Origin: Candidatus Aminicenantota bacterium
GTDB lineage: Bacteria > Acidobacteriota > Aminicenantia > Aminicenantales > Aminicenantaceae
Assembly (NCBI GenBank): GCA_030669305.1
Contig: DAOVDU010000005.1
Span: 1-50,316, forward strand
Length of the DNA: 50,316 nucleotides
Reading direction: 5' to 3'
Positions within the stretch are counted from its first letter, which is position 1, and every line of letters begins with the position of its first letter. The notes below the pieces were generated by a model, which worked only from the letters and a program-made list of their open reading frames with translations, was not told the origin of the DNA and searched no databases. A program made the position numbers and the translations under genes. This document shows positions 5,346 through 48,695 of this stretch, piece after piece.

Positions 5346-5508
5346 TCTGGTTATTCTGTTCGTCTGTTACTCAGTTTATCTGTTATCTATTTTATGTGTC
5401 ATAGATAATGACATTATAGTTAATTTTTTCTCAATCGTATTGGCTAACTTGCTAGTCCTCTTGTTAATATAACAGACTAACTGATGAATAGACTAACTGA
5501 CTAACATA
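5346..5508. repeat. Inverted pair of degraded 8-bp-period arrays with about 80-bp interior
   Basis: TCTGTTCG TCTGTTAC TCAGTTTA TCTGTTAT on the left; ATAACAGA CTAACTGA TGAATAGA CTAACTGA CTAACATA at 5469-5508. Confidence 0.75.
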
Positions 5509-12081: not shown

Positions 12082-12123
12082 CTCCAGACTCGTAAGCCTT
12101 AAGCTGAGAAAAAATCACTAATG

Positions 12124-12151
12124 GTTTAAGGTTTAATGTTTAATGTTTAAG
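12124..12151 (+). repeat. 7-bp-period GTTTAAN array
   Basis: GTTTAAG GTTTAAT GTTTAAT GTTTAAG. Confidence 0.85.
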
Positions 12152-12223
12152 GCAAGAGAATAAACTGGTTTAAGGTTGAAGGTTAAATGTTTAAGGCAAG
12201 AGGAGAAACTGGTTTAAGGTTGA
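12144..12223 (+). repeat. 36-bp direct repeat pair (TGTTTAAGGCAAGAGRAKAAACTGGTTTAAGGTTGA)
   Basis: Copies at 12144-12179 and 12188-12223 differ at 2 positions; a reverse-complement relative lies at 24991-25040. Confidence 0.85.
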
Positions 12224-12247
12224 CTGACTAACAGACAAACTGACTAA
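12222..12247 (+). repeat. 8-bp-period array fused to the end of the GTTTAAN array
   Basis: CTGA CTAACAGA CAAACTGA CTAAAAT; ends 2 nt from the stop codon of the HdrD-like gene (12250). Confidence 0.7.
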
Positions 12248-24770: not shown

Positions 24771-24916
24771 AAATTTTTTTTCAGTGAGATTATCATGTTT
24801 AAGCTCAAATTCTCACTATTTATGACTTTTTTAATTTGCGCTGTCAAGATAAAGTTGTGACTAGTCCTATTTGTGTGTATGAACGCGCTATTGCTCCAAA
24901 GTCACAAAACAAATTA

Positions 24917-25040
24917 GTTTAAGGTTTAAAGTTTAAGGTTCAAGGTATTCATATTTTTCATACAGTTCCATAAACATTAAACACTCAATCTTAAACCAGT
25001 TCTACTCTTGCCTTAAACATTTAACATTCAACCTTAAACC
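24917..25040. repeat. Inverted arrangement of GTTTAAN arrays upstream of lpdA
   Basis: 24917-24945 GTTTAAG GTTTAAA GTTTAAG GTTCAAG G; 24991-25040 is the reverse complement of a roughly 50-bp sequence nearly identical to 12167-12217. Confidence 0.82.
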
Positions 25041-25163
25041 AAAACAGATTTCAGTCATTGGTATTTGGGTTATAAAGATATAATTCGGTTTATCTCAGCG
25101 AAAAACTTAAAATGGATACAAAGAAAAGGTATAATGCTTTCAAATTCAAAAGAGAAGGAAAAA

Positions 25164-26585: not shown

Positions 26586-26608
26586 TATGCGAGAAAAGAA
26601 ACTGTTAG

Positions 26609-26680
26609 TCGGTTAGTCAGTTAATCTGTTAATCTGTTAGTCAGTTAGTCGGTTAGTCTGTTAATCTGTTAGTCGGTTAT
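26609..26680 (-). repeat. 8-bp-period tandem array, nine TC[AGT]GTTA[AGT] units
   Basis: TCGGTTAG TCAGTTAA TCTGTTAA TCTGTTAG TCAGTTAG TCGGTTAG TCTGTTAA TCTGTTAG TCGGTTAT, between convergent lpdA and the sulfatase-like gene. Confidence 0.9.
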
Positions 26681-45299: not shown

Positions 45300-46862
45300 A
45301 TGAAGAGGATAAAAATAATTTATCTGTTTTCAATTTTATTTTTAATTACAGGAGTGCTGGGGCAGCAAAAAGAGAAGGCGCTCTCTCTAGAAGACTGCAT
45401 TGTGGGCGCATTGAAGAACAACCTTGGGGTAGCTGTTGAAGTTTTGAAACCTGAACTTGCGGATATTTCTGTCTCTCTTGCTCGTGAGCAGTTCCTGCCA
45501 AGCATTTCCTTTGGATACAACACACAGAACACCATCTCGCCCTCCTTCTCCTGGATTGATGCTGTAGGTCAAGTTGAAACCCAGTTTAACGATTATTCCG
45601 CCCAAATCAGCCAGCTTATTCCTACAGGAGGAACTTTTGCTGTCTCACTCTATTCTTATAAAAACGATACAAACAGAAAATTCCAGACCATTAATCCTCG
45701 CTATGGGAGCAATCTTTATTTCAGTTTTTCCCAGCCGCTCCTTAAAAATTTTGGATTTAAAGTTACGAGAAAAGAAATTATTTTAGCTAGGAACAATATG
45801 GAAATTTCAGAAAACCAGCTCAAAATTATCCTCTTGGATACGATTTATAATGTTGAGGAAGCTTACTGGAATCTGGTTTACAGCATAGAAAACCTCAAGG
45901 TCAAGAAGCAATCTTTAAGATTGGCCCAAGATTTGTTAACCAAGAATAGAAGAGAGGTGGAAGTGGGAACACTAGCCCCTATAGAAATCTTGAGTGCTCA
46001 GTCCGAAGTGGCAACCAGGGAGGCAGATATTCTTCAAGCAGAGGTTTTGGTCAGAAACAACGAGGACAGTCTGAAGACGATAATAAACCTTGCTGCTGAA
46101 GAAAAAGTAGATCTTGTCAAGATTATCCCGACTGAGAAACCGTCTTATGAAGAAAGAAAAATCAGTCTTGAAGATGCACTATTCACTGGTATGAAGAATC
46201 GGCCGGATTTACAGGCGACGAGGATAGATATAAAAAACAAAGATTTGGACTTAAGCGTTGCTAAGAATCAGCTCTTTCCGGACTTGAGCTTTCAGGCAGC
46301 TTACTGGAGTCCAGGAATATCAGGGAGTCAGATTTTGTATCTTGACAATAACCCTCTGTCAGGAAAGGTAGTAGGTATTATTCCAGGCGTGGCCTCTAAT
46401 GCACTAAAAGATGCTTTTAACTTTAAGTACAGAAATTGGTCTGTGGGCTTAACGTTTTCCATCCCTATTAACACAATATTTTCTCGTGCCCAGTTTGCCC
46501 AGGCGAAAGTTAGTTTGGAACAAACGATATTAGGCTTAAAGAACAAAGAACAGCAGGCGTTTCTGGAAATAAGAAATGCAGTACGGGCGGTTCAAACAAA
46601 TTATAAGCGGGTTAATGCATACAAAGTTGCCGGAGAACTTGCCGAGGAGAAACTAGAAGCTGAGGAGAAAAAATTAAAGGTTGGGCTAACCACAAACTAT
46701 CTTGTTCTTCAACATCAAAGGGATTTAGGTGATGCGCGGGGTGCTGAGCTTAGGGCGATTGTGGATTATAATCTTTCCCTAGCTGCATTGGATAACGCCT
46801 TAGGCATAAGCTTGAATAAGAAAAACATCAAATTTTCTGAGATCAATTTGAAAATACGTTAA
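45300..46862 (+). CDS. TolC-family outer membrane efflux protein
   Basis: Signal peptide, two OEP-type halves (ARNNMEISENQLKIILLDTIYNVEEAYWNL; LTTNYLVLQHQRDLGDARGAELRAIVDYNLSLAALDNALG). Confidence 0.9.
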   Translation: MKRIKIIYLFSILFLITGVLGQQKEKALSLEDCIVGALKNNLGVAVEVLKPELADISVSLAREQFLPSISFGYNTQNTISPSFSWIDAVGQVETQFNDYSAQISQLIPTGGTFAVSLYSYKNDTNRKFQTINPRYGSNLYFSFSQPLLKNFGFKVTRKEIILARNNMEISENQLKIILLDTIYNVEEAYWNLVYSIENLKVKKQSLRLAQDLLTKNRREVEVGTLAPIEILSAQSEVATREADILQAEVLVRNNEDSLKTIINLAAEEKVDLVKIIPTEKPSYEERKISLEDALFTGMKNRPDLQATRIDIKNKDLDLSVAKNQLFPDLSFQAAYWSPGISGSQILYLDNNPLSGKVVGIIPGVASNALKDAFNFKYRNWSVGLTFSIPINTIFSRAQFAQAKVSLEQTILGLKNKEQQAFLEIRNAVRAVQTNYKRVNAYKVAGELAEEKLEAEEKKLKVGLTTNYLVLQHQRDLGDARGAELRAIVDYNLSLAALDNALGISLNKKNIKFSEINLKIR

Positions 46863-46894
46863 TCAGTTAGTCAGTTAATCAGTTAGTCGGTTAT
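46863..46894 (-). repeat. 8-bp-period array, left arm (four TC[AG]GTTA[AGT] units)
   Basis: TCAGTTAG TCAGTTAA TCAGTTAG TCGGTTAT, beginning at the tolC-like gene stop codon. Confidence 0.85.
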
Positions 46895-46936
46895 TTTGCT
46901 ATAAAAAAAGCAGGAACATGAGATACTTAATGCATG

Positions 46937-46990
46937 GAAATCAAGGGACACGTTACCGATTTCAGAAAATCGGTACATGTCCCTGATTTC
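46937..46990. repeat. REP-like long imperfect palindrome/hairpin
   Basis: GAAATCAAGGGACACGTTACCGATTT-CAGA-AAATCGGTACATGTCCCTGATTTC; the arms pair over about 25 bp with two bulges and one mismatch. Confidence 0.85.
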
Positions 46991-47021
46991 AAAGCCTATT
47001 CATGTTTATGAATAATTCAGG

Positions 47022-47085
47022 TTAACTGACTAACAGATTAACAGACTAACCGACTAACTGACTAACTGACTAACAGATGAACTGG
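47022..47085 (+). repeat. 8-bp-period array, right arm (eight units)
   Basis: TTAACTGA CTAACAGA TTAACAGA CTAACCGA CTAACTGA CTAACTGA CTAACAGA TGAACTGG. Confidence 0.9.
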
Positions 47086-47153
47086 ATGTTTTTTTTTGCT
47101 TAAATCTTATTAGTATCATATAATTACAAAAAATTCATAATAAGAGGTATAAT

Positions 47154-48695
47154 ATGAAACTCAAAGGTTATTTTGTCGAGGATATTCCTCGTCGAAAGTT
47201 TCTTGAGATGAGCCTCAAAGGAGGGATAGCTGTTGCGGCAACTCCCTCTCTGATGATGCAGCTTTTATCATGTAAGAGTTCAAAGCAAGCGAGTGCAAAG
47301 CTGGAATTAGATCCTCAAATTTTAAACAACACAATCCGTAAAGCCCTCGAAAAAGGAGGCGAATTTGCCGATGTTTATGTGGAAAATAGAATTTCCCGCA
47401 GGATATTGATGGAGGAATCCAAATTCAAGAGTGCAGTGTTTGGAATAAGTCAAGGTGCAGGCATAAGGGTTATATCCGGGGATAAAACTGGATTCGCTTA
47501 CACAGATGATATAACTGAAGAGAACCTTTTAAGAGCTGCAGAGGTAGCATCTTATGTGGCTAGAGAGGCAAAAGCTGTGGAACCTATAGATATAAAGCAA
47601 GGGGAAAGAGAATCTTATATCACTGTGAAGCTTCCTCTTGAGGAAGTGGTAGATGAAAAACGTCTCGAGGTTATGAAACGGGCAAACCAGGCTGCTCTTG
47701 ATTATGACCCTAGAATAAAGATGGCCTCCATCAGCTATTATGATGAAATCAGAGGTAGAACCGTTTCCAACAGCGAAGGCCTTTTATTGAGTGATGAGCT
47801 GCCATTACTTTTCTTTATTGTTCAGACCTTAGGTGTTGGAAAGAATACGCGGCACATGGGACGAGAAAGGCTAAGCAAGCATTCAGGTTTTGAGATGTTT
47901 GATATGGTTACTCCTGAAGAGGTGGCGCGGACATGCGCCCGGGAGTCTATTGTTATGCTTGAAGCAAAAGATTGCCCTGCGGGAAAGATGGATATAGTCA
48001 TGCAGAATGGATGGGGAGGTGTACTTGTCCATGAGGCAGTTGGCCATCCTCTCGAAGCTGATAATATTGCAAAAAAGATTGGTGCCTTTACTGGAAAGTT
48101 AGGGAAAAAGGTTGCCAGTGATGTTTTTACAATGGTAGATGATGGATCTTTACCAAACTTCAGGGGGACGACGAATTTTGATGATGAAGGGACACAGATG
48201 AAGCGAAATGTCTTGATAAAAGAGGGAGTGCTTGAGAAATACATGACTGATATTCTCTCAGCCAAGCAAATTAACATGGAGCGTACAGGAAATGGCCGCC
48301 GTGAAAGCTTCCGTTACATTCCAATTCCTCGTATGACTAATACTTTTATCGAGAAAGGAAAGGATAAACCTGAAGACATCCTTTCCTCAACTAAGAGCGG
48401 CATTTACGTTCAGAGCCTTAGTGGAGGGAGCGTTAACCCTATCACCGGGATGTTTAATTTCACTTGCCGTGAAGTTTATATGATTGAAAATGGCAAAAAA
48501 ACGACTCCGCTTAAAGGAGCAACTCTGATCGGAAGCTGTATGGATATCATAAAAAATATAGATGCAGTTGGGGATGACCTGGCTTTTGGCCCAGGGATTT
48601 GCGGCAAGGGTCAGGCTGCAGAAGTATCAGCCGGACAGCCTACTGTAAGAATCCGTGGAATAAATGTAGGTGGAAGCAGAGCAAGAAGATCATGA
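47154..48695 (+). CDS. tldD: TldD-type metalloprotease with Tat/lipobox-like N-terminus
   Basis: HEAVGHPLEAD (HExxxH), GSCMDIIKNIDAVGDDLAFGPGICGKGQ; N-terminus PRRKFLEMSLKGGIAVAATPSLMMQLLSC. Confidence 0.9.
   Translation: MKLKGYFVEDIPRRKFLEMSLKGGIAVAATPSLMMQLLSCKSSKQASAKLELDPQILNNTIRKALEKGGEFADVYVENRISRRILMEESKFKSAVFGISQGAGIRVISGDKTGFAYTDDITEENLLRAAEVASYVAREAKAVEPIDIKQGERESYITVKLPLEEVVDEKRLEVMKRANQAALDYDPRIKMASISYYDEIRGRTVSNSEGLLLSDELPLLFFIVQTLGVGKNTRHMGRERLSKHSGFEMFDMVTPEEVARTCARESIVMLEAKDCPAGKMDIVMQNGWGGVLVHEAVGHPLEADNIAKKIGAFTGKLGKKVASDVFTMVDDGSLPNFRGTTNFDDEGTQMKRNVLIKEGVLEKYMTDILSAKQINMERTGNGRRESFRYIPIPRMTNTFIEKGKDKPEDILSSTKSGIYVQSLSGGSVNPITGMFNFTCREVYMIENGKKTTPLKGATLIGSCMDIIKNIDAVGDDLAFGPGICGKGQAAEVSAGQPTVRIRGINVGGSRARRS

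Follow-up and report, generated by a model that had tools for sequence, protein, structure and literature searches.

The stretch of DNA analysed here (the window; 50,316 nucleotides) contains a gene gap in which two kinds of repeat meet, a short hairpin and a pair of inverted octamer arrays. On its upstream side, the TolC-type outer membrane efflux protein gene (45300-46862, + strand; Pfam OEP, E=5.8e-46) ends in a TAA stop codon (46860-46862) that falls within the first octamer of the left array. This array (46858-46893, - strand) is placed immediately at the TolC stop; its + strand sequence is GTTARTCN, and it comprises 4.5 units, GTTAATCA GTTAGTCA GTTAATCA GTTAGTCG GTTA. It is followed by a left interior spacer (46894-46936), which occurs once in the genome and in which the 16-nt core of other elements is unrecognisable, and by a REP-like hairpin (46937-46990) with a bulged stem and a CAGA loop, formed by head-to-head GGGACAYGT(T)ACCGATTT inverted repeats. 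The right interior spacer (46991-47021) is unique except for its first few bases, which are common to one other hairpin copy. The right array (47022-47085, + strand) consists of eight YTAACNGA units, inverted with respect to the left array, the last of which (TGAACTGG) is degenerate. The two focal arms are 84-86% complementary across 44 nt. A T run 3' of the right arm (47089-47097, + strand) is no general feature of the array family. The downstream neighbour is a tldD-type metallopeptidase gene (47154-48695, + strand) with Pfam PmbA_TldD domains, and PmbA/TldD domains are present in both genes downstream of the focal locus.

All described parts of the focal locus are present, far beyond chance. 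The four left units placed at 46863-46894 by the first-pass annotation agree with the 4.5-copy array, its eight right units at 47022-47085 were all recovered, including the degenerate one, and its palindrome with a CAGA loop at 46937-46990 folds as single-strand DNA with a minimum free energy of -17.5 kcal/mol (z = -8.1 against dinucleotide shuffles). As RNA, the entire focal region folds at -92.6 kcal/mol (z = -11.5). No match to an Rfam family of structured RNA was found anywhere in the window.

Hairpin family and Y1 transposase genes

The hairpin is an extragenic imperfect palindrome of the RAYT/TIRYT-associated kind and occurs in several near-identical copies, with eight at at least 93% identity in the genome (2.06 Mb, 122 contigs). 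It had earlier been taken for a REP-like hairpin of the Y1-transposase type, a single-copy hairpin being named as the observation that would speak against this. The assignment is supported by the eight copies, and by two Y1_Tnp genes with inverted-repeat ends, one of which is similar to the hairpin; both genes lie elsewhere in the genome, in keeping with the earlier remark that the window holds no transposase. A 31-bp inverted repeat (GGGGTCGCGTCTCAACATTTGACA...) borders the Y1 gene of L031 on both sides, and the second gene has a 34-bp inverted repeat (GGGGACATGATACCTATTTCC...) that resembles, and does not equal, the focal half site. The 17-nt half site itself (GGGACATGTACCGATTT, at most one mismatch) is present in 11 of 60 genomes including the present one, i.e. 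in 10 of 59 relatives. Neither this genome nor 13 relatives yielded a Y1 gene bordered by the focal hairpin sequence, so the mover of the hairpin is a putative one. A past insertion is suggested by the hairpin copy at L003:1501-1561, which lies within another inverted-repeat element (GGGGTCGCGTCTCAACATTTGACA...) whose repeats are those flanking the L031 Y1 gene. The 320-aa Y1 transposase encoded at L031:904-1863 also matches a DnaA-type C-terminal DNA-binding domain (PF08299, E=8e-7, just below the cut-off).

Two published classes of repeat are relevant. The TIRYT described by Di Nocera 2013 (PMC3733652) are Y1 genes bordered by long inverted repeats that carry a GGGGWSAS motif, and the repeats are also dispersed as dimers. 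Like these TIR repeats, the hairpin is a palindromic dimer of a long inverted repeat with a GGGGWSAS-like motif, is moderately abundant, and shares its genome with Y1 genes so flanked; unlike them, it carries GGGACAYG rather than the exact motif, and the focal sequence was not found flanking a Y1 gene. With the GTAG-tagged REP/REPIN/BIME sequences (PMC3116915, PMC8266576) it has in common that it is short, extragenic and multi-copy, with a bulged stem and a Y1 transposase in the genome, but it lacks GTAG at its foot and numbers 8 copies, not hundreds. Since no GTAG tetranucleotide at the hairpin foot is common to the flanks of the eight copies, the hairpin belongs at most to the TIR class of PMC3733652. 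It is of an already known kind, and is best read as a dimer of TIRYT-type TIR repeats that, by analogy, may have been moved by such an enzyme.

The octamer array family

Arrays of the TAACNGAY unit were surveyed in the window and a further 0.97 Mb of the genome (together 1.02 Mb, about half of the genome), giving 133 arrays in 85 clusters; the array finder returned zero arrays on shuffled sequence. A close inverted pair is present in 47 clusters, in the order GTTA...TAAC in all 47 and never in the opposite order, and the arms are exactly 16 nt apart in 31 of them. The 16-nt core is TTTTAATTAAAATATT, in either orientation and with few changes. A spaced pattern for the core junction gave 47 matches genome-wide, versus 2 for the reversed control, and the genome-wide number of palindromic octamer arrays is about a hundred. 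The other 38 of the 85 clusters are single arrays, some of which have probably lost a partner arm by decay. In several pairs with longer interiors the core is interrupted by another element, flanked by an 8-bp target duplication (TTTTAATT, TAAAATAT); the focal locus is a long-interior pair whose core is no longer recognisable. Within the window, octamer arrays are also present at five other places: an array of the same family at the window start (4-43, + strand), a complete inverted pair with the 16-nt core aatatattaatcaaaa (2129-2232), an inverted pair with an 84-nt interior (5362-5501), a short array at a stop codon (12221-12244, + strand), and a ten-unit array 14 nt past a stop codon (26600-26679, - strand). 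A non-autonomous element of 150-340 bp (ends GGCTCATCTCC... / GGTTCTTCTCCC...), with 8-bp AT-rich target duplications, was observed at L052:2846-3068, L064:7992-8148, L087:4791-5041, L051 near 2940 and L078:9582-9812, and several of its copies occupy the 16-nt core of octamer palindromes.

The position of the arrays relative to genes was assessed with mechanically called ORFs (longest-ORF selection), in which single gene assignments can be wrong. ORFs of 100 codons or more contain only 2.7% of array bases; arrays are over-represented in convergent gene gaps (p = 0.001) and under-represented in divergent ones (p = 0.02). Arrays start at, or a few nt from, stop codons, with the gene strand reading GTTARTCN in 47 cases and the opposite polarity in 6 (p = 6e-9), and only 7 arrays lie near start codons. 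Where arrays overlap the stop, the distances are -25, -17, -9 and -1, in steps of one octamer, so the stop codon is itself part of a unit. The stop precedes the array in 32 of the 47 cases, making the polarity count independent of stops supplied by the arrays themselves. Heptamer arrays near stops divide 8 versus 11 by orientation and so have no stop polarity.

The array family is confined almost entirely to the present genome among its relatives. A strict three-unit pattern matches this genome 388 times, whereas 246 other genomes from the phylum lack it and 59 close relatives together have a single match (G052), and no 7-8-nt arrays were found in ~377 kb from six relatives, versus hundreds per Mb in this genome. 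The G052 match (L129:1301-1324), apparently at a gene end, adjoins a CCTACAAATGGAAGAGG stretch, a sequence that lies next to octamer arrays in L040 and L053 too. The first-pass annotation had asked for presence/absence of the focal insertion in relatives. Absence was indeed found, the TolC-tldD gaps of four relatives with the same gene order (L099, L100, L101 and L104) containing neither arrays nor hairpin; all four relatives belong to other genera and their gaps are diverged, so they indicate lineage restriction and not the clean empty site that had been sought.

Further afield, 84,980 named species genomes contain at least 96 array stretches in many phyla, where ~1 would be expected by chance in the whole collection (by arithmetic), and reversed-pattern controls gave zero or nearly zero. 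Among the matches listed, some are perfect tandem arrays (Tatumella, Pseudoalteromonas, Methanocellaceae), and others, mainly from rumen Bacteroidales, are heterogeneous arrays of the same octamer that resemble the present ones and include a few inverted pairs. In two rumen Bacteroidales MAGs, RGIG7852 (loci L186-L259; 123 three-unit matches) and RGIG2740 (loci L205-L261), heterogeneous arrays lie at stop codons and share the polarity seen here. Across the Bacteroidota loci listed, stop polarity is 25:7, mainly from the rumen genomes; the loci listed from other phyla have none (6:9). The core-plus-octamer pattern had no match in public genomes, a set from which the present genome was possibly left out, and viral contigs contained no octamers.

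The closest published case is that of the TAACTGA heptamers of Beggiatoaceae (PMC4679880). MacGregor 2015 reported these direct repeats from marine Beggiatoaceae, some Cyanobacteria and five Bacteroidetes, in 169 sets, mostly just upstream of start codons and in forward orientation, with one inverted case. The present arrays resemble them in having a near-identical word (TAAC-GA), in being intergenic, patchy across phyla and present in tens to hundreds of sets per genome, and in containing stops in all three forward-strand frames. By contrast with the nearly invariant 7-nt TAACTGA, the present unit has 8 nt and two variable positions (TAACNGAY); the arrays lie at stop codons in the opposite orientation, not on the start-codon side in the forward one; and there are 47 inverted pairs in half of the genome, many with the 16-nt core, instead of a single inverted case. 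The arrays therefore share neither the 7-nt unit nor the forward placement upstream of starts that define the heptamer class. Prokaryotic LSSR (Mrazek 2007), as far as they are described in PMC4679880, are likewise intergenic tandem arrays with 7-8-nt units, but the present arrays differ from that description in their inverted pairing, fixed core, stop polarity and heterogeneous adjacent units. No description of stop-codon-anchored inverted octamer arrays was found in the open-access papers searched. Compared with known bacterial repeats, the array family is an unusual variant that has received little study. That stop-anchored GTTARTCN fold-back arrays of fixed polarity form a recurrent bacterial 3'-end element, having arisen or arrived independently in the present genome and in rumen Bacteroidales under selection at the level of the octamer, and spreading by recombination rather than by a transposase, is a doubtful proposition at this stage.

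Origin of the arrays and their meeting with the hairpin

The focal locus is likely to represent the chance meeting of a Y1-type hairpin dimer with a genome-wide array family of 3'-end palindromes. The hairpin would be a non-autonomous dimer built from the inverted-repeat ends of a Y1 transposase (RAYT/TIRYT) and would have entered the TolC-tldD gap in a single insertion. The array element consists of GTTARTCN units running from the stop codon, a short AT-rich core, and then the units inverted. Six of the eight unit positions hardly vary in either arm, from which we infer that the transcript can pair in any 8-nt register, so that a long stem-loop would form at the mRNA 3' end however many units each arm has. 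Such palindromes may act like REP/BIME sequences at the mRNA 3' end, in 3'-end protection or insulation, and recombination between arrays at different gene ends might spread and homogenise them, carrying along the interior and any inserts. This reading of the arrays as 3'-end palindromes spread by recombination is a tentative one, in which the function is something that we infer. What calls for explanation is that one 8-nt word, in one polarity and in inverted pairs around a fixed core, marks gene 3' ends genome-wide, while nearly all relatives are without it. Either a shared machinery recognises the octamer, or mutation produces it at gene ends time and again; both would be new.

The clearest whole-unit copying in the surveyed half of the genome is provided by two loci whose 243-bp array-interior-array units are 92.6% identical; the similarity stops in the arrays, and the flanks are unrelated. 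This copying fits recombination between arrays, and is no proof of a transposase-like process. As to the features of a MITE, the octamer element has dispersed copies bounded by inverted arms and lacks defined ends and target-site duplication: no fixed ends or target duplications of octamer elements were seen, arm lengths vary and flanks differ.

Among the alternatives, it is rather unlikely, although the best of them, that the arrays are non-functional simple-sequence repeats produced by slippage and tolerated only in intergenic DNA. Tolerance there would be expected since stop codons in every frame are harmless between genes, in line with the low share of array bases in ORFs; the arrays are also patchy in unrelated genomes, some of which have perfect tandem arrays, and other 7- and 9-nt arrays occur in the same genome. 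Against slippage, adjacent units are identical in 8.2% of cases, no more than the ~8% predicted from unit frequencies (by arithmetic), so that the arrays are not fresh slippage products, and neither the inverted order found in 47 of 47 pairs, with its fixed 16-nt core, nor the 47:6 stop-codon polarity is accounted for. Given how abundant 7- and 9-nt arrays are in this genome as well, a purely mutational origin of the octamer arrays is possible.

It is unlikely, if less so than the readings considered below, that the octamer is a protein-binding site, with the polar arrays and AT-rich core forming a nucleoid- or supercoil-managing site at convergent ends, like gyrase-binding BIMEs. This would agree with the fixed polarity toward the core and with conservation per unit: among 596 interior units, A2, A3, C4 and G6 are at least 99% conserved and T1 and A7 ~90% (six positions at 90-99.8% overall), 97% have a pyrimidine at position 8, and position 5 takes A, T or C, with G in just 1.3%. 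It would also agree with the absence of unit-by-unit covariation between the arms, which match in full in 3% of cases versus 9% with swapped partners, if anything less than by chance. On the other side, no candidate protein has been identified and single arrays are common. For the 3'-end palindromes proposed above, the lack of covariation leaves selection for pairing unsupported, but a stem still forms in every 8-nt register, since pairing between the fixed positions does not depend on the variable ones.

Bidirectional intrinsic transcription terminators are an improbable reading. The 3'-end location, the enrichment in convergent gaps and the T run 3' of the focal right arm would suit them, but T6 occurs within 40 nt of palindrome ends in 10 of 92 cases versus 52 of 739 after ordinary stops, which is not clearly enriched, so the combination of stem and U tract expected of an intrinsic terminator is unsupported. 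More improbable still is a translational fail-safe supplying stop codons in all six frames per 24 nt: the sense strand of GTTAR does hold TAR and its antisense strand TAA, the 8-nt period is not divisible by 3, and the arrays start at stop codons, but of the positions forming the sense stop T1 falls below A2, A3, C4 and G6 in conservation and position 8 does so to some extent, the highly conserved C4 and G6 play no part in the sense stop, and the inverted second arm and core are left unexplained. A six-frame stop cassette was rejected as the driver, the best conserved positions including ones that form no stop.

Least probable of all, and rejected, is the composite mobile element of the first-pass annotation, a small non-autonomous transposon with the arrays as terminal inverted repeats and the hairpin as internal signal: the focal layout is symmetrical, and the array-interior-array unit copied whole elsewhere implies that arms and interior can travel together, but 7 of the 8 hairpin copies lie outside octamer arrays (the focal one being the exception), 46 of 47 inverted array pairs in the surveyed half of the genome lack the focal hairpin, and, with array pairs making up 5.6% of non-coding DNA, the probability that at least one of eight hairpins falls inside a pair by chance is ~0.37. 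Hairpin and arrays are two independent repeat families, nested by chance.

Other repeats accompany the octamers. Intergenic 7-nt arrays of the GGTTTAA/TTAAACC type are present in the window at 12122-12223 and 24915-25041, and elsewhere in the genome; 7-nt arrays with the unit AAACCTT number 43 in half of the genome, and AGTAAGG and ACTCAAA units occur too. The genome also contains 9-nt arrays (AAACCAGAT), and both the 7- and the 9-nt arrays often adjoin octamer arrays. Dispersed GTCATTGCGAG...GAAGGAAGCGYGGCAATCTC repeats border several octamer pairs (flanks in L066, L075 and L096).
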